Source: a virus
DNA length: 20,177 bases
Strand: one strand, 5' to 3'
IMG/VR virus record: IMGVR_UViG_3300023176_000660
Span: 1 to 20,177 of that record
Numbering within the stretch: the stretch's first letter is position 1; each line of letters starts with the position of its first letter. Of this stretch, positions 149 to 20,177 are shown in pieces. The notes under the pieces are model-generated. The model was not told the DNA's origin. It saw only the letters and a program-made list of their open reading frames with translations, and made no database searches. The translations under genes were made by a program, and so were the position numbers.

Positions 149-1149
149 ATCTTCAGAATAAACTATTCTACCATCCGGAAAAACTTCAAGAATTTTTTAA
201 ATCCGGAAATACCACTCCTGTAACTTGGGAGTTGGATCCTACTAATAGATGTAATCATAACTGTATTGGATGTTATGCAGCCGGAGCTGGAGGAAGGACT
301 AATGATGACTCTCTAACTTGGGAACAGGCAAAATCTTATGTTGATCAAGTTTACGATCTAGGAGCTAAAGCAATTAACCTAACTGGAGGCGGGGATCCTA
401 TGGTTAATAAGATAACTCCTAAACTAATACAGTATATCAAGTCTTTAGGTATGGATGTCGGTATGATTACTAACGGTACTATATTTACTGATGAGTCTAT
501 AGATGTAGTAGTTCAAAACTGTACCTGGGTTAGAATTAGCATGGATGGAGGTACTCCTGAAGTCTATACTGAGATTAGGAAAGTTCCTGAAAGGCATTTC
601 TATCTTGCTTTTGAGAATATGAAAAAACTCGCCAAGAGGAAGCAGGAACTTAACTCTAATATTACAATCGGTTCAGGTTTCTTAACAAGCACTCTCACTG
701 TTCCTTCTTTAGTTACTTACGCTGAGTTATGTAAAGAAGCAGGTATTGATTATATTCAAATAAGACCTTTCCACGGAGATTATACTATACCTTATAACAT
801 AGAAGAGACTCTGGCTCTGGAGGATTCTAATTTTAAGATTCACTACTCTAAGAATAAGTACGAGGAGGGTTATAAGAAAAAATACCCTAAATGTCTTGCC
901 CAAACTTTTAGCGGGGTTATTAACGTTCATTCAGTATACCTCTGCTGTCATTTTAGAGGAGTAGAAACTAAGAAGCTCGGTGATCTGAGAGAAAAGACTT
1001 TGCTTGAAATATGGGCAGGTAGAAAGAGAATGATTGTATTGGAGGAGTTAAATCTTGATAAATGTATTGCCCACTGCCGTTTAGATCTAGTAAATAGACA
1101 GTTGCAGGATATGTTAGATTCTGTACCGGATCATGTAAATTTTATATAG
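130..1149 (+). CDS. Radical SAM / SPASM-type iron-sulfur enzyme
   Basis: The 339-residue protein has the canonical radical SAM cluster motif CX3CX2C (C41, C45, C48, in RCNHNCIGCY), followed by a TGGGDP glycine-rich motif at 85-90 that fits the SAM-binding GGE-type motif. A C-terminal region carries extra cysteines (C255, C272, C273, C312, C316) around a GDLREKTLLEIW segment near 284-294, typical of SPASM/twitch domains that bind auxiliary Fe-S clusters. Such enzymes cleave S-adenosylmethionine to a 5'-deoxyadenosyl radical and modify peptides, sugars or other small substrates; the substrate here cannot be told. GTG at 130 is the only usable start after the in-frame stop at 109-111, and it lies inside the end of the preceding gene. 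The C-terminus ends in DHVNFI, an ending I recall, unverified, from some bacterial SPASM proteins. Confidence 0.88.
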   Translation: MGKAPIDLQNKLFYHPEKLQEFFKSGNTTPVTWELDPTNRCNHNCIGCYAAGAGGRTNDDSLTWEQAKSYVDQVYDLGAKAINLTGGGDPMVNKITPKLIQYIKSLGMDVGMITNGTIFTDESIDVVVQNCTWVRISMDGGTPEVYTEIRKVPERHFYLAFENMKKLAKRKQELNSNITIGSGFLTSTLTVPSLVTYAELCKEAGIDYIQIRPFHGDYTIPYNIEETLALEDSNFKIHYSKNKYEEGYKKKYPKCLAQTFSGVINVHSVYLCCHFRGVETKKLGDLREKTLLEIWAGRKRMIVLEELNLDKCIAHCRLDLVNRQLQDMLDSVPDHVNFI

Positions 1150-1175
1150 AAGTAGTAATAACTCTTATACCCTCT

Positions 1176-1185
1176 TATATTTATA
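1176..1185 (+). promoter_or_regulatory. AT-rich start-proximal box TATATTTATA
   Basis: This TATATTTATA element ends only 3 bases before the GTG start at 1189. It belongs to a family of similar boxes found before several other starts in the window. It fits TAnnTTTA, close to the Bacteroidota -7 box TAnnTTTG, but its closeness to the start means a transcript from it would be nearly leaderless. The promoter role is inferred. Confidence 0.35.
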
Positions 1186-1188
1186 TAT

Positions 1189-1638
1189 GTGGGAATAGAT
1201 CCTAATAACGTATTTGGACTGTTCGGAGATACTTCCGGATCCTCAGATTCTTTTGAAAAAGAGCCGGGAAGGATTGAGATCTCAGAGCATCCATTAATTC
1301 TAGTAGGGATGTTTACCCGTATGGTTCTTAGAGGGGAAGAGGTTAATAAAGATATAATGAAGTTCTTTCAAGAGATTGAACGTAAGGTAACTGCTTCAGA
1401 ACAAGAACACTTTAATAAGTTTATGATTTATAACCGGGCATTATCTTTTTTAGCCCAAATTAATCTTGATGATCCTTTACATGTTGAAGTACTTTTAGAT
1501 AAGACCGGAGAGGATTTCTTACAGGCTTGTAATGTGACTATTGAGTTCTTTACCGAACGAGAAGAGTATGAAAAGTGTGCATTTATAAAGAAATTTCAAG
1601 ATTTTATAAAATTTTCTCAAAATAAGTTGCCTTTATAG
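1189..1638 (+). CDS. Unknown 149-residue phage protein
   Basis: I do not recognise this family. The first 30 residues are Gly/Ser/Asp-rich and probably flexible (GLFGDTSGSSDSF). The rest is predicted by eye to be mostly helical and acidic. A C-terminal stretch (EREEYEKCAFIKKFQDFI, about 124-141) resembles the helical hairpin pattern of UVR-type motifs (E-YE-A-I-), but this is only a loose likeness. There is no signal peptide or membrane segment. GTG at 1189 is the only start downstream of the in-frame TAA at 1159-1161. An ATG two bases upstream (1187) is out of frame and hits TAG after three codons. The gene sits between the radical SAM gene and another small unknown gene. Confidence 0.7.
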   Translation: MGIDPNNVFGLFGDTSGSSDSFEKEPGRIEISEHPLILVGMFTRMVLRGEEVNKDIMKFFQEIERKVTASEQEHFNKFMIYNRALSFLAQINLDDPLHVEVLLDKTGEDFLQACNVTIEFFTEREEYEKCAFIKKFQDFIKFSQNKLPL

Positions 1639-1642
1639 TTTT

Positions 1643-1681
1643 CCGTGAGTATCTTAATATCACGGGGGTTTGATAAAACCC
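1643..1681 (+). other. Two back-to-back RNA hairpins in an intergenic gap
   Basis: Two perfect inverted repeats abut each other here. The first has arms CCGTGA (1643-1648) and TCACGG (1660-1665), and the stem can extend by TAT/ATA around a CTTA loop with one bulged G. The second has arms GGGTTT (1666-1671) and AAACCC (1676-1681) around a GATA tetraloop. No T-run follows, so this does not look like a simple intrinsic terminator. It may be an RNA processing, mRNA-stability or translation-control element for the gene at 1707. The fold is seen in the sequence; the role is inferred. Confidence 0.55.
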
Positions 1682-1706
1682 AAAGATAAAACAAGACATA
1701 AAAACT

Positions 1707-1904
1707 ATGAGATATAGAGATATTATAATTAACAATGTAGATGTATTAGAGAGTCAATTAAAGACTTTAAGACGTATGGTACAGAGGGGGGAGTCAATAA
1801 AGGAATTTATAGCTACCTTAGATCAAGCAGATGAACGTTTAGAGAAAGTTAAATCTTACGTTCAACTTGAACCTAAAAGTCCTAACGAAGTAGGTGGCAA
1901 TTAA
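1707..1904 (+). CDS. Small helical protein, unknown function
   Basis: This 65-residue protein is predicted to be one or two long helices with heptad-like spacing of hydrophobic residues (VDVLESQLKTLRRMV, then ADERLEKVKSYVQL), so it could form a coiled coil. The last dozen residues are polar and probably disordered. There is no signal peptide and no known motif. The start ATG at 1707 follows an A-rich leader (ataaaaact) with no Shine-Dalgarno. It lies between the double hairpin upstream and the HD-domain gene downstream. I do not recognise the family. Confidence 0.6.
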   Translation: MRYRDIIINNVDVLESQLKTLRRMVQRGESIKEFIATLDQADERLEKVKSYVQLEPKSPNEVGGN

Positions 1905-1913
1905 CCGTTTTCG

Positions 1914-1928
1914 TTCGTATATTTAGAC
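1914..1928 (+). promoter_or_regulatory. Start-proximal box, TTCGTATnTTTAnAC type
   Basis: The sequence TTCGTATATTTAGAC lies directly before the ATG at 1930. Thirteen of its 15 bases match the element at 19378-19392 before the primase gene. The inner TATATTTA resembles a Bacteroidota -7 box with A in place of the final G. No convincing -33 element was found. A promoter function is inferred. Confidence 0.4.
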
Positions 1929-1929
1929 T

Positions 1930-2712
1930 ATGAACCTTACAGCAGAACAAATTCAAGAAAATTGGAATGAGTTTCTCTCAAACATTGAGACTCGTATTTC
2001 CGATCCTCGTAAACAGGCCCTTCTAGATTTTTACAAGACTAACGAAGAACGTTTTGTCTTAATGCCTGCCGCTCACACTACCAAGTTTCATAACTGTTTC
2101 CCTGGAGGATATGTAGAGCATGTTAACCGTGTTGTACGCTGTGCTTTAGCTCAATGTAATCTCTGGGAGAGTATGGGTTGTGATATGACTACTTTTACTA
2201 AAGAGGAACTTGTCTTTGCTGCTATTAACCATGATTTAGGTAAGGTTGGAGATTCATCAAACAATCTCTATATACCTTCCCAGGATGATTGGAGAAAAAG
2301 AAATTTAGGAGAACTCTATACGTTTAACGGGGAAGTAGGGTTCATGACAATCCCTGATCGTTCTCTTTTCCTTCTACAAGAAGCCGGTATTCGTTACACT
2401 CTTAACGAAATGCTAGCTATCAGAACTCATGACGGACTATATGATGATGCTAATAAGCCTTATCTAATATCCAGAATTCCAGAAAGTAAGCCTAAATCTG
2501 CCATTGTTTATATCTTACACCAGGCAGACTTGATGGCAGCCGTTATTGAGACTCAGAGAGGAAAAGAGGACGCTCCTAAATCTAAAAACTTTAAAATGGA
2601 GAAGAAAGCCTCAAGCCCGGTAACACATCAGCAGAAAGCTAAAAATAAAGCTTTAAGCAATGTTAAGTCCGAAGGTTTGAAAAACGTAATGGATAATTTC
2701 TTTAACGACTAA
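1930..2712 (+). CDS. HD-domain metal-dependent phosphohydrolase
   Basis: The 260-residue protein shows the ordered metal ligands of the HD superfamily: H64 (GGYVEH), the HD doublet H101-D102 (NHDLGK), H167 (THDG) and D200 (HQAD). HD enzymes hydrolyse phosphoester bonds of nucleotides or nucleic acids using divalent metals; the arrangement is loosely like that of YhaM-type 3'-5' exoribonucleases or phage nucleotidases, and the substrate is not evident. The catalytic domain spans about 45-205. A lysine-rich, probably disordered linker (about 212-248) follows, and the protein ends in a hydrophobic tail, GLKNVMDNFFND, that could be a protein-docking peptide. ATG 1930 follows a conserved upstream box rather than a Shine-Dalgarno. 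It lies 3 bases before the next gene. Confidence 0.85.
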   Translation: MNLTAEQIQENWNEFLSNIETRISDPRKQALLDFYKTNEERFVLMPAAHTTKFHNCFPGGYVEHVNRVVRCALAQCNLWESMGCDMTTFTKEELVFAAINHDLGKVGDSSNNLYIPSQDDWRKRNLGELYTFNGEVGFMTIPDRSLFLLQEAGIRYTLNEMLAIRTHDGLYDDANKPYLISRIPESKPKSAIVYILHQADLMAAVIETQRGKEDAPKSKNFKMEKKASSPVTHQQKAKNKALSNVKSEGLKNVMDNFFND

Positions 2713-2715
2713 AAA

Positions 2716-3030
2716 ATGCTTATAGCAATTATAATACTTTCTACAACGACGTTGGTTCTAGGTTTCACAACTTGGAACCTTCTTCGTAAGAATGAAAGAC
2801 AGGAAGACGTCCTAGCTAGTTACCTAAGCTACATGGACTCTCTATCAAAGATCATAGAACATTCAGCTACCAGACTTAATAAAATAGATGAGAAAGGTAC
2901 TTTTAAATCTGATGATGAAATCGGATGGTTCTTTGAGCAGGTTCTAAACATACAATCAAGGTTAAACAATTTTAGATTAATTAACACCGAAGATGGAACC
3001 GCAAAAGAAAAAGAGGAGACCGAAAAGTAA
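2716..3030 (+). CDS. Small membrane-anchored protein, unknown function
   Basis: The 104-residue protein begins with an uncleaved-looking membrane segment (about 2-22: LIAIIILSTTTLVLGFTTW), then a basic RKNER, suggesting an N-out/C-in anchor with a cytoplasmic helical domain. A middle segment (DDEIGWFFEQVLNIQSRLNN, about 66-85) looks like a conserved amphipathic helix, and the end is charged (KEKEETEK). Its 3' end overlaps the sigma-factor gene by 38 bases in another frame, so the two are translationally coupled. The start ATG follows an A-run just 3 bases after the HD gene. Small proteins of this layout are, as I recall, common beside gp55 homologues in T4-like phages. The function is unknown. 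Confidence 0.7.
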   Translation: MLIAIIILSTTTLVLGFTTWNLLRKNERQEDVLASYLSYMDSLSKIIEHSATRLNKIDEKGTFKSDDEIGWFFEQVLNIQSRLNNFRLINTEDGTAKEKEETEK

Positions 3031-3679
3031 AAATTACTTTACCTCAGATACAGAAGACGCTATTATTAGATATAATAACGAACCAGATCCAGAAGTTCGT
3101 AGTAAGATTTATAGGGAGGAGTTAGACTATCCCTTTTTTAAATTAACACAAAACCTAATTCACACCTTTAAATTCTATTACACAGAAGAATCTAATCTAG
3201 AGGATTTACAGCATGAAGTGGTAACTTTCCTACTAAGTAAATTACATCTATTTGATCCCTCTAAAGGAGCAAAGGCTTATTCATACTTTGGAACAGTAGC
3301 CAAGCGTTATCTCATAGCTTCTAACGAAAAGAACTATAAGAAGAGAATGCAGATGCTTTCCCTAGATAGTATCTCAAGAGAGGAAGAAGGAGAATGGACT
3401 CATGGTGAACTACCTGATATGTCTCAAGAAGATCAAGGAGCAGTAGCATCACACCACGTTGATGAACTATCAGACTTCCTAGACGTGTATGTTGAGTTCT
3501 GTACAAAAAACATCTTTAACATATTCCCTAAAGAAGAAGATGCCCAGATTGCTGATGCAATCCTTGAATTATTTAGAAAAAGAGAAAGTATCTCAATCTT
3601 CAATAAGAAAGCCCTATACATCTATATCCGTGAAATGGTAGACGTTAAAACACCAAAAATTACTAAAGTAGCTAATTAA
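2993..3679 (+). CDS. 55: Late-transcription RNA polymerase sigma factor, T4 gp55-like (possibly truncated)
   Basis: The 228-residue product resembles T4-superfamily gp55, the sigma-family subunit that directs host RNA polymerase to late promoters. A lysine-rich N-terminus leads into KNYFTSDTEDAIIRYNNE (13-30). A sigma region 2-like core follows (about 40-110), including HEVVTFLLSKLHLFDPSKG and AYSYFGTVAKRYLI. The central part (about 128-160) is acidic and variable. The C-terminal helical segment (IFNKKALYIYIREM) ends abruptly at TPKITKVAN. The frame continues past the TAA at 3677-3679 with plausible protein sequence for 22 more codons, so the annotated end may be a nonsense mutation, a readthrough stop or an error. 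ATG 2993 lies inside the preceding gene. Confidence 0.88.
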   Translation: MEPQKKKRRPKSKNYFTSDTEDAIIRYNNEPDPEVRSKIYREELDYPFFKLTQNLIHTFKFYYTEESNLEDLQHEVVTFLLSKLHLFDPSKGAKAYSYFGTVAKRYLIASNEKNYKKRMQMLSLDSISREEEGEWTHGELPDMSQEDQGAVASHHVDELSDFLDVYVEFCTKNIFNIFPKEEDAQIADAILELFRKRESISIFNKKALYIYIREMVDVKTPKITKVAN

Positions 3680-3748
3680 TTAGGGGATATCTACAAAAAA
3701 CACTATTTACATTACCTAGATCACGGTTATGTAGAATTCAGAATCTAA
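3680..3748 (+). other. In-frame coding-like extension after the gp55 stop
   Basis: In the gp55 frame, 22 sense codons follow the TAA at 3677-3679 before a second TAA at 3746-3748. They encode LGDIYKKHYLHYLDHGYVEF plus Arg-Ile, which reads like the amphipathic C-terminal end of a protein rather than random intergenic DNA. A single change of the internal TAA (for example to CAA, AAA or GAA) would give a 251-residue protein. With the extension, the gap to the next gene shrinks to 31 bases, similar to other gaps here. The stop sits inside a perfect 12-base palindrome, CTAATTAATTAG (3672-3683). Confidence 0.55.
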
Positions 3749-3752
3749 GTGG

Positions 3753-3767
3753 ATTCTATTTATAAAA
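3753..3767 (+). promoter_or_regulatory. Candidate late promoter, 15-mer ATTCTATTTATAAAA
   Basis: This exact 15-mer recurs at 9861-9875. Both copies lie before a gene of the tail module, ending 12 and 11 bases before the ATG. It contains TATTTATAAAA, close to the T4 late consensus TATAAATA. Since the phage encodes a gp55-like sigma just upstream, a late promoter is the natural reading. It overlaps the downstream arm of a short inverted repeat (AGAATC 3740-3745, GATTCT 3752-3757). Function is inferred. Confidence 0.5.
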
Positions 3768-3779
3768 AATAGACCCTTT

Positions 3780-4151
3780 ATGAGCTTAGAAAAGATTATA
3801 TTTAAAGAAAAGCGTTACTCCGAACTTTTAGAGGAGATCTACGATAATCAAAAAAGAAAAGAAAAGCAGATATCGGGATTAATATCCGAACTACGTCCTT
3901 TGATTCAAGATACCGGTGATGCAACCATCATCGTTCCTTTGATTAAGGAGTATATGGAGATAGGAGTTAAGAATGACGAACAGTTAATCAAGGTAGCGAC
4001 TATCCTTCAAAGAGTATTTCAGAACCAGGATTCAGGAGCTGAAGGCTTCGGTATTTCTGATGAAGAAAGAGAACAGCTTTTAAGAGAAATTGACAATATT
4101 CAGAACAGTCAAGAACCACCAAAACAACTTCCAGAAGGAGATAAAGAATAA
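3780..4151 (+). CDS. Helical protein opening the tail gene cluster, unknown function
   Basis: The 123-residue protein is acidic and predicted to be nearly all helical. A charged coiled-coil-like N-terminus (YSELLEEIYDNQKRKEKQIS, about 13-32) precedes a segment (about 46-80) containing DATIIVPLIKEYMEIGVKND and VATILQRVFQ. The C-terminal 25 residues are Gln/Pro/Glu-rich and likely disordered. There is no signal peptide or enzyme motif. It is the first gene behind a candidate late promoter and ends 2 bases before the spike gene, so it is probably expressed with the baseplate genes as a structural or assembly protein. A role as a transcription co-factor like T4 gp33 (similar size) is possible, but nothing in the sequence shows it. 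Confidence 0.65.
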   Translation: MSLEKIIFKEKRYSELLEEIYDNQKRKEKQISGLISELRPLIQDTGDATIIVPLIKEYMEIGVKNDEQLIKVATILQRVFQNQDSGAEGFGISDEEREQLLREIDNIQNSQEPPKQLPEGDKE

Positions 4152-4153
4152 TA

Positions 4154-5425
4154 ATGGCCAGCTCTTTAAACTTAGAACCCGTTCGTGTACTTGCAGTTAT
4201 CTTAGATGATAAAGAGTATCCTGAGTTATTTAAAAAACACGGAGAATGGGCTTCTATCGGCGGTATTATATTTGAATTCGTAAAACAACCTACTAAAGAT
4301 AAAAACCTACTCAACAAACAATTTGCCGCACCTTTATATTCCAATATAAAACACCTACCAGTTGAGCATGAAATAGTACTAGTAGTACAAAGCTCAGACT
4401 CAGGTATATTAGATAACCTCAACTCCTTTAGTTACTACTACCTACCCCCAACTAACGTGTGGGCTAATAGTCACCATAACGCTGTACCAGATCAAATCTT
4501 CGCAATACCTGGAGAAGGTGATGGACTACCTGATAGAAGTAGGTCTGATTATGTTACTGTAGGTGATAAAGTTGTACGTCAAATAGATACTAACGGTACA
4601 GAAATTTTTAAACCAGGAGATCCTTTTACTGAATTTCCATACATCTCAACATTAACACCTTACCCAGGAGACCTAATACTAGAAGGACGTTGGGGAAATA
4701 GTTTAAGGTTTAGCAGTACTAATTCAGATTATGGTTTAGGTAGAAACTGGGGAAACTACTTAAGTACTAACCCTCCAATCACAATCTTGAGAAATGGAGT
4801 AGAACCTAATTTAGGAGAGACTAAACCAGTATGGGAGACAGTATCAGAAGATATAAATAAAGACTACTCTTCTATATATTTAACCTCAGAACAAAAAATC
4901 CCATTAAAACCTTCTGCATTCAGAACAACCTCTTTTGAAGAAAACAAAACACCTATATCTATACCAGAATTTAGAAACCCACAAATAATCCTATCTTCAG
5001 ACAGGTTAGTATTTAATGCAAGTCAAGATTCTATACTAAATTGTGCTAATAAAACCTTTACAGTAACTTCTAATGAATCTATAAATCTACAAACGAAAAA
5101 AACCGTAGTAGAGAGTCAAGAAGTACTACTAGGTTCTAAAGATGCAGAAGAGAGATTAATAAAAGGGGATACTTTTGTTAAAGAGATGCTTTCCTTTTTA
5201 AATGCAATGAAACAAGTTCAAAGAGCTTTAGGAACCGCAACAGTACCGTCCACAGATCCGTTAACCGGATTACCCGTTAATATACCTATTGAATCCTTAG
5301 TAGAAGTAAGTACGATGTTTGGAGCTTCCATAGATAAATTTGCAAACGTATTAGGTAAAGTAAGAGGACCTATGGCAGAAGTTTCTGATTCTACAGTCTT
5401 ATCTAACACCACTAAAACACAGTAA
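4154..5425 (+). CDS. 5: Baseplate central hub/spike protein, gp5-like without lysozyme
   Basis: The 423-residue protein looks like the hub/spike of T4-like baseplates. The N-terminal 80 residues are beta-rich (VRVLAVILDDKEYPELF) and may form the OB-fold. A signature segment GRWGNSLRFSSTN (about 178-190), then PPITILRNG and SSIYLTSEQKIPL (near 238), matches the pattern I associate with gp5-like proteins of marine T4-like phages. From about 278 to 345 the sequence is short alternating strands (IILSSDRLVFNASQDSILNC), as in the triangular beta-helix of gp5 and VgrG spikes. No lysozyme domain is visible, unlike T4 gp5. The last 75 residues are helical. A GGAG about 12 bases upstream of the ATG may serve as a weak ribosome site. 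The family assignment is from memory of patterns, not a search. Confidence 0.68.
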   Translation: MASSLNLEPVRVLAVILDDKEYPELFKKHGEWASIGGIIFEFVKQPTKDKNLLNKQFAAPLYSNIKHLPVEHEIVLVVQSSDSGILDNLNSFSYYYLPPTNVWANSHHNAVPDQIFAIPGEGDGLPDRSRSDYVTVGDKVVRQIDTNGTEIFKPGDPFTEFPYISTLTPYPGDLILEGRWGNSLRFSSTNSDYGLGRNWGNYLSTNPPITILRNGVEPNLGETKPVWETVSEDINKDYSSIYLTSEQKIPLKPSAFRTTSFEENKTPISIPEFRNPQIILSSDRLVFNASQDSILNCANKTFTVTSNESINLQTKKTVVESQEVLLGSKDAEERLIKGDTFVKEMLSFLNAMKQVQRALGTATVPSTDPLTGLPVNIPIESLVEVSTMFGASIDKFANVLGKVRGPMAEVSDSTVLSNTTKTQ

Positions 5426-7212
5426 TGGCTACTGCTTATCCAAATACAGGCCCTTTTAAACGTGGATCCAAAGGACAGGATGTTAAACTCATACAGAGTC
5501 AATTAAAACTATATTATGCTATAAGAAGTTTAGATCTCCCTGCTAATATAGCAGTTCTACCTCAAGATGATGATCAACCTGGTTATGGAATTTATGGACC
5601 TGCAACTGAAAAAGCGGTTAGAACATTTCAAGAAACAGCTCAGATAAAAGTAGATGGTCTAGTAGGCCCTAATACATGGAAAGTTTTATTTGCAGAACCA
5701 ACAGAAGAAGTTGTACCGGAAGAAGAACCTGTACAAGAAGAAAAAACCGAAGTTACTTATAAAGAGTATATCGTACTTAAAGGAACTATTGCTGATGATT
5801 TTGGAGATCCTATAGGAGGAGTAAAAATACAATACTCAGGACAGGAAAAAGGTCCAGATGGAAAATACGTAGAAGAACCTATAACAACTACAGATACGAC
5901 AGAAATACCAACTCCTGTAGATACTGTAACTACACCTAAATTAGTACTGATTGCTGGTAAGACTATAGACGACCCTAAGAAGACTAAAGAAGAACCTCCT
6001 GAAGGCTCTTCTCTTATCGACGTATTTACTGCCAATCCTGCAGATGGAGCATTCGGAGAATTTCAGTTATTTATACCACTATCTCAATTTGACCTCGATA
6101 CAGGTAAACTCAGTATAATACCCCAAGATAAAGGAGCAGATACGAAAGTATCTACAAAAACTATTGATAAAATTAGTACAGCTAATCCATTAGTATATGT
6201 AACCGAGGACGTAGTAATACCTAAAAAGGTACTCAAACTATACACAGATGAAGAAGTACCTAAACAAGGTTTAGCTATTTCAAATCAAAGTACTGCTTAT
6301 GATTTAGGTACTATTAGGTTATCTGCTTTATTACGCGGTCTAAAAGAAATACAACGGTATGCAACTGACCAAATCAACGAGTATACAGGTAAATTTAATG
6401 AAGTTAAAGGTAAATTAAAATTACCCCCTCAAATAGAATTAAAGAAAAGGTTAAATCAAGTTATTGAGGAGGTTAAAGAAAATCTACAACCTATCGTTTT
6501 AGAACTCCTGCAGGAATTTGGACCCCAGATCCTCCAGCTGGTAATGTCAAATGCAGATAAAAATATTATTGAAGCAAATAAAACATGTCCAGATGAAGAA
6601 AAAATTAAAGAAATTATAGCACGTAGAAACAGATTAATTAGAGCACTAAACAGCCTATACAGTCTAGTCCAAATAGGACTACTCTCATCCGCTGGCTTAT
6701 CTGCCGCTATACAAGCAGCTAAGATAGGGTTAGCTGTTTATAACGCAAACCCATTTCCAACACCACCTGCCGTAAATTCCGCTAAAGAGTCCATTATTTT
6801 AAGGTTAAATCTATATGGATTAGTTGCAGACGGTCTCACTACAACTTTTGCAATCCTAGGTTATATTCTTGGCTTGATATTAGACAATCTAAACTCTTTA
6901 GATAATTTAATACTGGGATGTAGTAAAGATCAAGAAATACCATTCGAAGCTATTAACGAAGAATTAAATAATTTAACAGATCCTCAATTAACACAGGAGG
7001 TACAACGTGGAGAAATAGGTTATAAAGGTTTTACTCTAAAAGTACAATTAACAGGTAAGGATGTAAGCGGATACCAGAGTAGAATAGGTATAGCTTATGA
7101 TAGATCAGGAGTAGCAGTATTAACAACTCCACCCTCATTCACCTCAGTACCCGATCTACTATTAAAACAATTACAAGTAAGAATAGATGAAGAAAATCTA
7201 AAAGCAAACTAA
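5425..7212 (+). CDS. Peptidoglycan-binding multidomain tail protein
   Basis: The 595-residue protein starts with a peptidoglycan-binding domain of the PG_binding_1 type (about 11-90): RGSKGQDVKLIQSQL, then YGIYGPATEKAVRTFQ and DGLVGPNTWKVLF. A Glu/Pro-rich linker (91-112) leads to a beta domain with carboxypeptidase-regulatory-like character (KGTIADDFGDPIGGVKI, from about 118). The second half is helical. It has a charged stretch (about 330-400) and two hydrophobic segments, near 405-440 and 464-490 (the latter containing TTFAILGYILGLIL), that could contact or cross a membrane. The start overlaps the spike stop by one base (TAATG), so the two are coupled. The context suggests a baseplate hub or spike-associated protein that binds the cell wall during entry. 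No catalytic domain is seen, and the exact role is inferred. Confidence 0.72.
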   Translation: MATAYPNTGPFKRGSKGQDVKLIQSQLKLYYAIRSLDLPANIAVLPQDDDQPGYGIYGPATEKAVRTFQETAQIKVDGLVGPNTWKVLFAEPTEEVVPEEEPVQEEKTEVTYKEYIVLKGTIADDFGDPIGGVKIQYSGQEKGPDGKYVEEPITTTDTTEIPTPVDTVTTPKLVLIAGKTIDDPKKTKEEPPEGSSLIDVFTANPADGAFGEFQLFIPLSQFDLDTGKLSIIPQDKGADTKVSTKTIDKISTANPLVYVTEDVVIPKKVLKLYTDEEVPKQGLAISNQSTAYDLGTIRLSALLRGLKEIQRYATDQINEYTGKFNEVKGKLKLPPQIELKKRLNQVIEEVKENLQPIVLELLQEFGPQILQLVMSNADKNIIEANKTCPDEEKIKEIIARRNRLIRALNSLYSLVQIGLLSSAGLSAAIQAAKIGLAVYNANPFPTPPAVNSAKESIILRLNLYGLVADGLTTTFAILGYILGLILDNLNSLDNLILGCSKDQEIPFEAINEELNNLTDPQLTQEVQRGEIGYKGFTLKVQLTGKDVSGYQSRIGIAYDRSGVAVLTTPPSFTSVPDLLLKQLQVRIDEENLKAN

Positions 7213-7216
7213 GAAA

Positions 7217-7228
7217 TATTTATAAATA
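7217..7228 (+). promoter_or_regulatory. AT-rich start-proximal box containing TATAAATA
   Basis: TATTTATAAATA occupies the 12 bases immediately before the ATG at 7229. It includes the exact T4 late-promoter core TATAAATA at 7221-7228. If it acts as a -10 element, the transcript would start at or inside the start codon. Its role is inferred. Confidence 0.4.
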
Positions 7229-7603
7229 ATGAAATCAGACGCTCTAAAGAAATTAATTAAAGAAGCTGTTAAAGAAGCTATCCAAGAGGAACTAAAGGAA
7301 ATTCTTCTAGAGGCAGTTCGTGCACCTAAACAAGTTGTAACGGAGAATGTTCAACCGGCAGCAAGACCGGCAGCAGCTCCAACCCAAACAGGACCTTCTG
7401 TAAGAGAGAAGTACTCTTCTCTATTAGATGGAATGGCCCAATCAAGAAACGGAAATTTAAACATGACTTCCACCGACGCTCAAGGCTTTGGAGCCGGACC
7501 AGCTTACCAGCCCCCGGCATCAGCTAACACAGCCGGTGAAGGATCTGCATTACCTCCAGGGGAAGTATCTCTTGACCAGGTAATGGGAATGATAAAAAAA
7601 TAA
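7229..7603 (+). CDS. Small protein with amphipathic helix and Ala/Pro-rich middle, probable virion or assembly protein
   Basis: The 124-residue protein has a strongly amphipathic Lys/Glu helix at residues 5-31 (LKKLIKEAVKEAIQEELKEI), then a disordered Ala/Pro/Gln linker (about 32-58). A Gly/Ala/Pro-rich tail follows, and the protein closes with a short helix, SLDQVMGMIKK. It has no cysteines, no signal peptide and no known domain. It sits 6 bases before the gp25 gene, inside the baseplate cluster, so a structural, scaffold or adaptor role is likely. I do not recognise the family. Helix-linker-helix proteins of this kind could tether two virion parts, but that is speculation. Confidence 0.65.
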   Translation: MKSDALKKLIKEAVKEAIQEELKEILLEAVRAPKQVVTENVQPAARPAAAPTQTGPSVREKYSSLLDGMAQSRNGNLNMTSTDAQGFGAGPAYQPPASANTAGEGSALPPGEVSLDQVMGMIKK

Positions 7604-7608
7604 AATAG

Positions 7609-8013
7609 ATGGCAATCAGAGTAGCAAATAAGACTCTAGCAGATATTCAACCTAGAACTGCAGTAGGTATTAAATTGCCCTTCTCAGGAGAAGCTGTATT
7701 TAACAGTACCTACACTACTGGTGAGCAGATTAAATATAACATTGAAAACTTCTTTAGCACTACTCCTGGAGAACGCTTTATGAATCCTACTTTCGGAGGA
7801 GGTTTAAAGGATGTTATTTTTGAAAATCTAGATGATGAATCTTTTGATCTCGCTCAACAGAGATTACAAAGTGATCTTGCTACGTATTTCCCGAATGTAG
7901 AAATAGTAGAATTACAAGTATACTCAAACGAAGATAGTAACCAGTTATTAGTTAAATTAACTTATAGAGTTAAAAATCTACAAGTAGAAGATACACTTAC
8001 TATAATTATATAA
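7609..8013 (+). CDS. 25: Baseplate wedge protein gp25
   Basis: The 134-residue protein matches the gp25/GPW family of baseplate wedge proteins in length and motifs. Gp25 is a small core wedge component at the sheath-baseplate junction, where the tail sheath starts. The family signature appears as TTPGERFMNPTFGGGLKDVI (51-70), which includes the conserved PGER and P-FG. It is preceded by GEQIKYNIENFF and followed by an amphipathic helix (FDLAQQRLQSDLATYFPNVE) and closing strands (LLVKLTYRV, DTLTIII). The T4 protein is 132 residues, so this one is full length. It lies 5 bases after the preceding gene and 7 before the gp6-like gene, so all are probably on one transcript. The leader is A-rich without Shine-Dalgarno. 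Confidence 0.9.
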   Translation: MAIRVANKTLADIQPRTAVGIKLPFSGEAVFNSTYTTGEQIKYNIENFFSTTPGERFMNPTFGGGLKDVIFENLDDESFDLAQQRLQSDLATYFPNVEIVELQVYSNEDSNQLLVKLTYRVKNLQVEDTLTIII

Positions 8014-8020
8014 ACCTTAT

Positions 8021-9859
8021 ATGGCAGTTCAAAGAAATATAAATTACCTAAACAGAGATTTTAACAGCTTAAGAGAGAGGTTAATAGAATTCTCCAAAAC
8101 ATACTTCCCAGATACCTACAACGACTTTACACCATCTTCAACTGGAATGTTGTTTATGGAAATGGCTGCTTATGTAGGTGATATAATGTCTTTTTATATT
8201 GATAATCAAGCTCAAGAAACTTTTATTCAATATGCAAGACAGACTAACAATCTTTATGAATTAGCCTACTTACTAGGTTATAAACCTAAAGTTACATCTG
8301 CTGCAATAACAACGGTTGAATTTTACCAAGAACTTCCCGCAGTAGCAGGTCAACCGGATTGGAACTATACTATAACGATTCCACAAGGTTTTAAAGTAGG
8401 AAATCCTTCAGACTCTTCTATTAGTTTCATTACTCAAGACACATTAAATTTTGCAGTGTCTAGTAGTGAAAATCCAACTACAACCTCTATATATGAAATT
8501 ACAGGAGGTAATGTCGAGAGTTATTTATTAAAAAAATCCGTACAGGTTATATCTGCTAGAACAAAAACAAAGACTTTCACATTCGGAACCCCAGAATCTT
8601 TTAGTACAGTAGATATTGAAGATGCCGATATTATCGGAATTGAGTCTATTGTAGACAGTGAAGGAAATATTTGGTACGAAGTAGATTATCTAGGTCAAGA
8701 TGTAATTTTTGATAGTATAAGAAATACTAACCCAAATACTCCTACCGAAGATTCCGAAGTACCCTACCTACTTCAAACAAAACAAGTACCTAACAGATTT
8801 ACAACTAGATTCTTAAACGAAACAACTTTACAGTTGCAATTTGGCGCAGGTACTTCTGAAAATGCAGATGGAGAAATTACTCCAAACCCCAACAACGTAG
8901 GGTTAGGTTTACCCTCAGAACAAGATAAACTCACAACAGCTTTCTCGCCTACAAATTTTATCTTTACTAATACCTACGGAACTGCCCCTTCAAACACCAC
9001 ACTGACCGTTACCTACCTTGTAGGAGGAGGTATAGATTCTAACGTACCTGAAAATACATTAACAACATTAAAATCCAATACTGCAGTTTTTAATAATGCA
9101 GGAATAGATCCAGTCATCTCCCAAACTATTTTTGATAGCCTATCTGTAAATAACCCAGAAGCAGCAACCGGCGGTAGGGATGGAGATAATATTACTGAGA
9201 TAAGACAGAACTCACTATCAACATTTCAAAACCAGTTAAGAACAGTTACTGTAGATGATTACCTGCTCAGAGCTCTAAGTCTACCATCCAGGTACGGTAC
9301 CATCGCTAAAGCCTACGTTACAAAGCAAAGCTTAAACGATGTACTACCCGGTGAAGTACCTTCAACTTTAGATCTTTACGTACTATCCTACAATTTAGGT
9401 AAGAGCCTTGTTACTGCAAGCGATGCACTAAAGAAAAATCTAAGAACTTACCTATCTCAGTATAGAATGGTTGGAGATAGTGTCGGTATAAAAGATGCAT
9501 ACGTAGTTAATATAAAGGTTAACTTTGAGATTATTACTTACCCTAATACGAACAGCAGTCAAGTATTAGCCGCATGTATTGAAAGATTACAAGATTATTT
9601 TGATATCGATGACTGGCAAATAAATGAACCTATATTGCTTAATGAATTGTATATTGAATTAGATAAGATTGAAGGAGTACAGACGGTTAAAAACATAGAT
9701 ATTATAAATAAAACTGGCATTTCAGCAGGATATAGTACATATTCATATGATATAAAAGGAGCAACTAAGGATGATATAATTTACCCATCTTTAGACCCTA
9801 TGATTTTTGAAATCAAATACCCGAATAGTGATATAACCGGGAAAGTAGTTTCCAGGTAA
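8021..9859 (+). CDS. 6: Baseplate wedge protein gp6-like
   Basis: The 612-residue protein resembles T4-superfamily gp6 (660 residues in T4), the wedge subunit that forms the inner ring of the baseplate and belongs to the wider baseplate J-like group. The N-terminus carries the characteristic NYLNRDFNSLRERLIEF, followed by STGMLFMEMAAYVGDIMSFY and YELAYLLGYKP (about 8-90). The middle is beta-rich. A J-like core lies around 375-440, with GRDGDNITEIRQNSL followed by TVDDYLLRALSLPSRYGTIA. The C-terminal domain (about 490-612) has two short alpha/beta units. It directly follows gp25, the usual partner in the wedge. ATG 8021 lies 7 bases after the gp25 stop. Confidence 0.87.
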   Translation: MAVQRNINYLNRDFNSLRERLIEFSKTYFPDTYNDFTPSSTGMLFMEMAAYVGDIMSFYIDNQAQETFIQYARQTNNLYELAYLLGYKPKVTSAAITTVEFYQELPAVAGQPDWNYTITIPQGFKVGNPSDSSISFITQDTLNFAVSSSENPTTTSIYEITGGNVESYLLKKSVQVISARTKTKTFTFGTPESFSTVDIEDADIIGIESIVDSEGNIWYEVDYLGQDVIFDSIRNTNPNTPTEDSEVPYLLQTKQVPNRFTTRFLNETTLQLQFGAGTSENADGEITPNPNNVGLGLPSEQDKLTTAFSPTNFIFTNTYGTAPSNTTLTVTYLVGGGIDSNVPENTLTTLKSNTAVFNNAGIDPVISQTIFDSLSVNNPEAATGGRDGDNITEIRQNSLSTFQNQLRTVTVDDYLLRALSLPSRYGTIAKAYVTKQSLNDVLPGEVPSTLDLYVLSYNLGKSLVTASDALKKNLRTYLSQYRMVGDSVGIKDAYVVNIKVNFEIITYPNTNSSQVLAACIERLQDYFDIDDWQINEPILLNELYIELDKIEGVQTVKNIDIINKTGISAGYSTYSYDIKGATKDDIIYPSLDPMIFEIKYPNSDITGKVVSR

Positions 9860-18941: not shown

Positions 18942-19376
18942 ATGACCCAGAATTGGATTTATATTGATCCGGTCCACCCTGAGGACTGGTTTGGATTCGT
19001 ATACGTGATTAAAAATAAAGTCACCGGAAGAATCTATGTAGGTAAAAAAGTCTTCTGGAATAATCTTAAGAAGAAACTTACCAAGACTGAACTAGCAGAA
19101 CAGACCGGCCCAGGTCGTAAGCCGACTCATAAAAGAGTAACCAAAGAATCAAATTGGTTAACTTATTGGGGTTCTAATAAAGAACTTCTAGAAGACGTTA
19201 AGGAGCTAGGTCAAGATAACTTCGAAAGAAAGATCCTAAAACTTTGCAAATCTAAAAAAGAATTAACATATTACGAATTACACTACCAATGCAAGGAAGA
19301 GGTTCTATTAACTAATTCCTATAATGATAATATCTTAGGTAAATTCTACCGGAGAGACTTGCTTTCGGAAGATTAA
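18942..19376 (+). CDS. SegE-like GIY-YIG endonuclease
   Basis: The 144-residue protein has a GIY-YIG nuclease core in which the two name motifs read FVY (19-21, GFVYVIKN) and YVG (32-34, GRIYVGKK). Downstream are WLTYWGSNKELLEDVKELG (72-90) and NFERKILKLC. E112 in YYELHYQ is the likely metal-binding catalytic glutamate. The layout matches the SegE-type GIY-YIG family of T4-like phages, which cut DNA and can act as free-standing homing enzymes. The basic linker (about 41-70) may contact DNA. No DNA-binding module is fused. The gene abuts the zinc-type gene upstream with no spacer and lies 19 bases before the primase. Whether it is a mobile element or a resident phage nuclease cannot be told. 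Confidence 0.8.
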   Translation: MTQNWIYIDPVHPEDWFGFVYVIKNKVTGRIYVGKKVFWNNLKKKLTKTELAEQTGPGRKPTHKRVTKESNWLTYWGSNKELLEDVKELGQDNFERKILKLCKSKKELTYYELHYQCKEEVLLTNSYNDNILGKFYRRDLLSED

Positions 19377-19395: not shown

Positions 19396-20177
19396 ATGGT
19401 AAATCACCTACTAGTAAATCTAGTAAATAACGTTTTAGGGAATGGTAAAGCAACCTCGGGTGCTAACTACTCCTACCATTGTCCTTTCTGCAATCATAGA
19501 AAACCTAAACTCGAAATTAACTTTAGGGAGAATGAAGAAGGTTTAAATAACTGGCATTGCTGGGTATGTAACCGGAAAGGTAAAAAACTGATAACATTAT
19601 TCCGTGCCATAGACGCTCCCCAGCACCGTATTGATGAATTAGGATCTTATGTTAAGATTGCCTTTCATGACCAGAAAGGAAAGCAGGAAGAGACTTTATC
19701 CCTACCTAAAGAATATAAACCTTTATACCAGGCTGATACCAAAGACATAACCGTCCGTCAGGCCCTTAGGTACCTTAAAGAAAGAGGCATAACTAAATTA
19801 GATATTGCCCGTTATAATTTAGGATACTGCGATAAAGGCCGCTATAATAATATGGTCATTACTCCATCCTATGATGAATCAGGTACCTTAAATTATTTTG
19901 TAGGAAGAAACTTCGGACCGGGGGTAGTCAAATATAAAAACCCTTCTTTCTCAAAAGATATAGTTCCTTTTGAATTATTAATTAACTGGGAGAGTCCGAT
20001 TATACTATGTGAAGGTCCTTTTGATGCAATGGCAATCAAACGTAATGCCGTTCCTTTACTTGGAAAGACTTTACCTAAGAAATTATTGAAAAAGATAGTG
20101 TCTTCTAAAGTAAAACAGATCTTCATAGCACTTGATAGTGATGCCTTAAAACAAGCTCTCTCCTACTGTGAGACACT
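19396..20177 (+). CDS. 61: DNA primase with zinc finger and TOPRIM domain (3' end outside window)
   Basis: An open frame of 260 codons runs from ATG 19396 off the end of the window without a stop. The N-terminus has a zinc-binding set, C29-X2-C32 (HCPFCNH) and C55-X2-C58 (HCWVCNRKG), as in T4 gp61- and DnaG-type primases. A helical linker with a QALRYLKERGITKLDIARY segment (122-140) is typical of the region joining zinc finger and catalytic core. The TOPRIM motifs follow: IILCEGPFDAMA with E206, and IFIALDSDA with D247 and D249, the expected Mg-binding acidic residues. It would make RNA primers for lagging-strand synthesis. It is the first replication gene after the tail module and has its own upstream box. 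The 5' part shows no defects; the remainder cannot be assessed. Confidence 0.88.
   Translation, partial: MVNHLLVNLVNNVLGNGKATSGANYSYHCPFCNHRKPKLEINFRENEEGLNNWHCWVCNRKGKKLITLFRAIDAPQHRIDELGSYVKIAFHDQKGKQEETLSLPKEYKPLYQADTKDITVRQALRYLKERGITKLDIARYNLGYCDKGRYNNMVITPSYDESGTLNYFVGRNFGPGVVKYKNPSFSKDIVPFELLINWESPIILCEGPFDAMAIKRNAVPLLGKTLPKKLLKKIVSSKVKQIFIALDSDALKQALSYCET

Follow-up and report, generated by a model that had tools for sequence, protein, structure and literature searches.

A private in-frame TAA interrupts the conserved 3' part of a sigma-like gene in an uncultured phage contig

The late sigma factor gp55 of phage T4 has a length of 185 aa. A variable linker precedes its clamp-binding motif, which is a short tail; loss of this motif impairs activation but does not abolish it (PMC7892883, PMC2988020). 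Here we analysed a stretch of 20,177 nucleotides of viral DNA (IMG/VR record IMGVR_UViG_3300023176_000660, positions 1 to 20,177), referred to as the window, in which a sigma-like frame is ended by an in-frame TAA. The label gp55-like, given to this frame in the initial annotation, is plausible but unproven, the match to PHROG 234 (the T4 late-sigma family) being weak (E = 0.0075) and covering residues 42-114 only, i.e., region 2. Likeness to T4 gp55 consists of this weak similarity over sigma region 2 and of a gene position adjoining late structural genes, whereas the protein encoded here is larger (about 250 aa) and has a second predicted helical domain.

Compared with sigma-70 factors carrying regions 2 and 4, the protein shows fold matches and a Pfam Sigma70_r2 match (E = 5e-4, 20.2 bits, below the cut-off of 24), but all sequence scores, including that for NCBIfam TIGR02937 (17.1 bits, cut-off 42.9), are under the curated cut-offs and no PDB fold match has an E-value under 0.001. 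The region 2 matches are weak, yet co-located across Pfam, NCBIfam and PHROGs (residues about 42-117); searches of PDB sequences and of phage DNA returned no match. In the AlphaFold model (mean pLDDT 73.6, pTM 0.44), helical parts at the N- and C-terminus flank a poorly predicted stretch (residues 124-156), and helix 220-244 closes the C-terminal one. Sigma factors make up most of the top PDB matches and of the named BFVD matches in the fold search, at low significance (E of 0.03 or worse in PDB, and a lone BFVD match under 0.001, at 8e-5, that carries no name) and with TM-scores that are low. We describe the protein as sigma-like, with two helical domains in the prediction. The C-terminal one, considering its sequence and the order of its helices, may be a DNA-binding helix-turn-helix.

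The start of the sigma-like gene overlaps the end of gene 2716-3030, and the next gene downstream is 3780-4151 (Table 1). Inspection of the window sequence confirmed the initial description of a TAA at 3677-3679 that is followed by 22 sense codons (LGDIYKKHYLHYLDHGYVEFRI) and a further in-frame TAA at 3746-3748. It had also been stated that this extension fills most of the longest gap, and the spacer created by the premature stop (3680-3779, 100 nt) is indeed the longest in the window. At the protein level, the stop cuts the predicted helix 220-244 after residue 228, with about half of this last helix being lost.

Table 1 Coordinates of the sigma-like gene, its interruption and related stops in a sister contig (window positions).
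Feature	Position	Strand	Remarks
Sigma-like gene, form seen in all relatives	2993..3748	+	251 codons plus stop; interrupted at codon 229 in the window
Open frame present in the window	2993..3679	+	228 aa; ended by in-frame TAA
Premature TAA, derived from GAA by a single G>T, private to the window	3677..3679	+	only stop at this codon among 108 distinct homologues
GAA at the same codon in relatives	3677..3679		L086, L001, L084, L082, L083, L085, L087
Conserved coding tail past the stop	3680..3745	+	22 codons; covers the later portion of the predicted last helix and a short end
Ancestral stop codon of the sigma-like gene	3746..3748	+	position same in L086, L001, L084
Private stop E48* in L086	2857		gene 2716; GAA to TAA
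Private stop E243* in L086	8747		baseplate-wedge-like gene 8021; GAA to TAA

Homologues were collected by tblastn against IMG/VR, and the best 80 matches were examined for the tail. All 80 have a sense codon at the position of the window's stop and continue past the ITKV segment with a homologous, similar tail of 21-23 residues, as the initial annotation had supposed. Across all loci fetched, 108 distinct homologous sequences of the gene include this codon; in 107 of them it is sense and encodes Q, E, R, K, D, H, I, L or V as residue 229, the sole stop being that of the window. The tail residues L230, Y238, Y241, G245 and Y246 are invariant in an alignment of 51 sequences. The gene also runs past codon 229 in relatives from metagenome bins labelled Flavobacteriaceae or Flavobacteriales and in Flavobacterium phage vB_FspM_immuto_3-5A (MW353176.1), where the hypothetical protein QQO92070.1 represents the same gene, about 46% identical and with the tail present. 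Closer to the window, the uncultured phage contigs L086, L001 and L084 carry intact orthologues with the tail and no stop at codon 229. In the 66 bases after the stop, only silent codon differences from the window were found in these contigs (three in L001, one in L084, none in L086), whereas five silent and five amino-acid codon differences separate the window from the contig L002. As the tail shows no amino-acid change relative to L086, L084 and L001, there is no sign of decay.

Judging from these alignments, positions 3680-3745 are genuine coding sequence whose match to homologous tails is far above chance, the ancestral gene extended to 3745, and the sigma-like gene is otherwise intact and under purifying selection. 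The proposal that the extension is the natural C-terminus is hence upheld by the sense codon in the 107 homologues and by the conservation of the tail. That the TAA at 3677 is instead the natural gene end, with the tail as mere spacer, agrees with the stop in the window's own frame, but is extremely improbable in the face of homologues that run on with invariant positions, and the alignment led us to reject it. The gene is properly annotated as 2993-3748, its codon at 3677 being disrupted.

In L086, L001, L084 and the immuto phage, the intact gene has similar neighbours, a phosphohydrolase-like gene upstream and baseplate genes downstream. Elsewhere in the window, a Radical SAM/SPASM-type gene (Pfam, 130-1149) lies within the phage late-gene block, and a SegE-type GIY-YIG endonuclease-like gene (18942-19376, Pfam E = 1e-29) adjoins a primase-like gene. 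Simple consensus searches of 3600-3900 yielded no promoter or terminator. The motif TATTTATA is present on the + strand at 1178, 3757, 7217 and 9865, in short spacers just upstream of genes 1189, 3780, 7229 and 9887, so that four of its five + strand copies in the window sit in spacers. Moreover, 41 of 41 distinct relatives have TATTTAT downstream of the sigma-like gene, mostly some 20-30 nt ahead of the following ATG, compared with 141 of 4000 random stretches from the same loci. In this phage group, TATTTATA/TATTTAT is a candidate for a late-promoter element, and in reverse complement it is similar to the T4 late promoter TATAAATA.

According to the initial annotation, the tail might correspond to the sliding-clamp contact of gp55, and the stop might uncouple late transcription from replication. 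This idea found no support, because the T4 gp55 layout of variable linker and short tail is absent here and the conserved tail directly continues the predicted helix 220-244, which leaves a loss of clamp coupling unsupported. Models of the T4-type clamp (PF09116, PF02916) gave no match in five long related records, a result of little weight as they matched no control genome either, and the end of the single DNA polymerase found in long relatives (L258, ending ...NVTKFFKF) is by eye unlike the sigma tail.

The nearest relative, L086, is 99.70% identical to the window over 177-8930 (8,754 bases), and the change at 3677 is among the 26 differences. Here a single G>T change distinguishes TAA in the window from GAA in L086, while the following 66 bases are identical. 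A pattern scan allowing either base at 3677 recovered seven contigs, every one with GAA (Table 1), and scans for the flanking sequence revealed no other allele at this position in a collection that may omit records very close to the window. Outgroup comparison polarises the site, with the T of the window as the derived state. These comparisons show that the TAA occurs in no surveyed contig but the window, and that what lies past it is conserved coding sequence. Within the same gene, five silent differences between the window and L086 are clustered at 3475-3517; at several of these sites the window's base recurs in more distant relatives, and the cluster is possibly a small recombination tract.

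Conserved coding sequence behind a stop is also what programmed or regulated readthrough would leave, with two forms of the sigma factor, short and long, being produced, and the RNA downstream of the stop folds slightly better than shuffles (z -2.0). However, a programmed stop is expected to be conserved, and none of the 107 other distinct sequences has a stop at this site; TAA followed by T, the context found in the window, is not known to be leaky. Regulated readthrough, raised as an alternative in the initial annotation, is thus very improbable and was rejected, as no relative has a stop at codon 229 and the RNA structure signal is weak. An even smaller, almost negligible probability is assigned to TAA being read as an amino acid by the phage, to which three GAA-to-TAA changes in two contigs of the population could be attributed. 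Against such recoding, 16 of the 19 complete window genes end in TAA (the sigma-like gene being counted by its first stop), no other window gene contains an internal TAA, and no tRNA gene was found in the window. The use of TAA at gene ends led us to reject this reading too, in agreement with the earlier view that genome-wide recoding is unlikely.

The two further GAA-to-TAA changes are private stops of L086 in other genes (Table 1; the name baseplate wedge for gene 8021 is taken from its annotated match in immuto), and the base at 8747 is G in the two closest outgroups and C in L087. In addition, L092/L204 has a private 2-bp deletion at window 19526-19527, which causes a frameshift in the primase-like gene. 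When 13 window genes were surveyed by tblastn over all loci, near-identical contigs had no clear internal stop apart from the one of the window and the two of L086; other stops fell at the variable end of gene 2716 or in distant alignments. In the diverged contig L162, the sigma-like gene has a stop at residue 182.

To characterise these changes, we considered those confined to one of four near-identical contigs (window, L086, L091, L092). They comprise 26 transitions (19 silent, 7 non-silent) and seven transversions, of which one is A>T and six are G:C>T:A, so that the latter class is over-represented among transversions relative to site counts (p ~2e-4). All six G:C>T:A changes are non-silent and three are stops; in these genes, random G:C>T:A changes are expected to be 92% non-silent, with 13% stops, and random transitions 66% non-silent. 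Purifying selection is visible among the private transitions (p ~5e-5) and not in the G:C>T:A class; like the test of the skew, this comparison was devised after the pattern was seen and comprises small numbers. The differences from L001 shared by the window and L086 show no such skew, as 6 of their 19 transversions belong to the G:C/T:A class, both directions being counted. For the window alone, 3677 is the only private transversion; the 17 private changes besides it are without exception transitions, most of them silent. Guanine that is oxidised ex vivo is known to give G>T (PMC12390751), and the spectrum looks like DNA damage or low-coverage consensus error.

Since the G:C>T:A excess in the population is without visible selection, we place consensus error ahead of a nonsense mutation that is real but unfixed. 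The TAA at 3677 is probably a consensus error of this contig, and we infer an artefact as opposed to a rare real mutant. Oxidative DNA damage or library preparation may have introduced the G>T that turned GAA into TAA, and low read depth would have retained it in the contig consensus, while the phage population itself would most likely produce the full 251-aa sigma-like protein. As the window itself is not error-rich, its 17 other private changes being ordinary, this case leans on the sister contigs and one site, and G>T also arises by genuine mutation. A serious, if clearly less probable, alternative is that some or all phages of the sample carry a real and recent nonsense mutation, with half of the last helix lost, whereby the genome might be defective, complemented in mixed infection or tolerant of a weaker sigma factor. 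It would need a single step, the remainder of the contig looks like clean natural variation, and a tail intact in near-identical relatives fits a very young mutation. Nevertheless, the change is missing from every other contig, L086 included, and it would remove invariant residues from a gene that is intact in the other surveyed relatives except L162, with its one stop. Both possibilities had been named initially, as recent nonsense mutation and sequencing error, and both are retained here for what is an isolated nonsense singleton. A truncation that is real and established in the strain, which would leave a functional sigma factor lacking the last portion of its C-terminal helix and thereby change late-promoter use, is improbable.

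Overall, the isolated stop is an ordinary finding, most likely an error in the sequence or a dead-end mutation, and needs no new regulatory device as explanation. Singleton stops with a G:C>T:A skew, as in this phage population, can mimic readthrough, recoding or gene decay, and comparison with near-identical contigs settles such cases quickly. If the truncation were true, this sigma factor could dispense with the end of its last helix.
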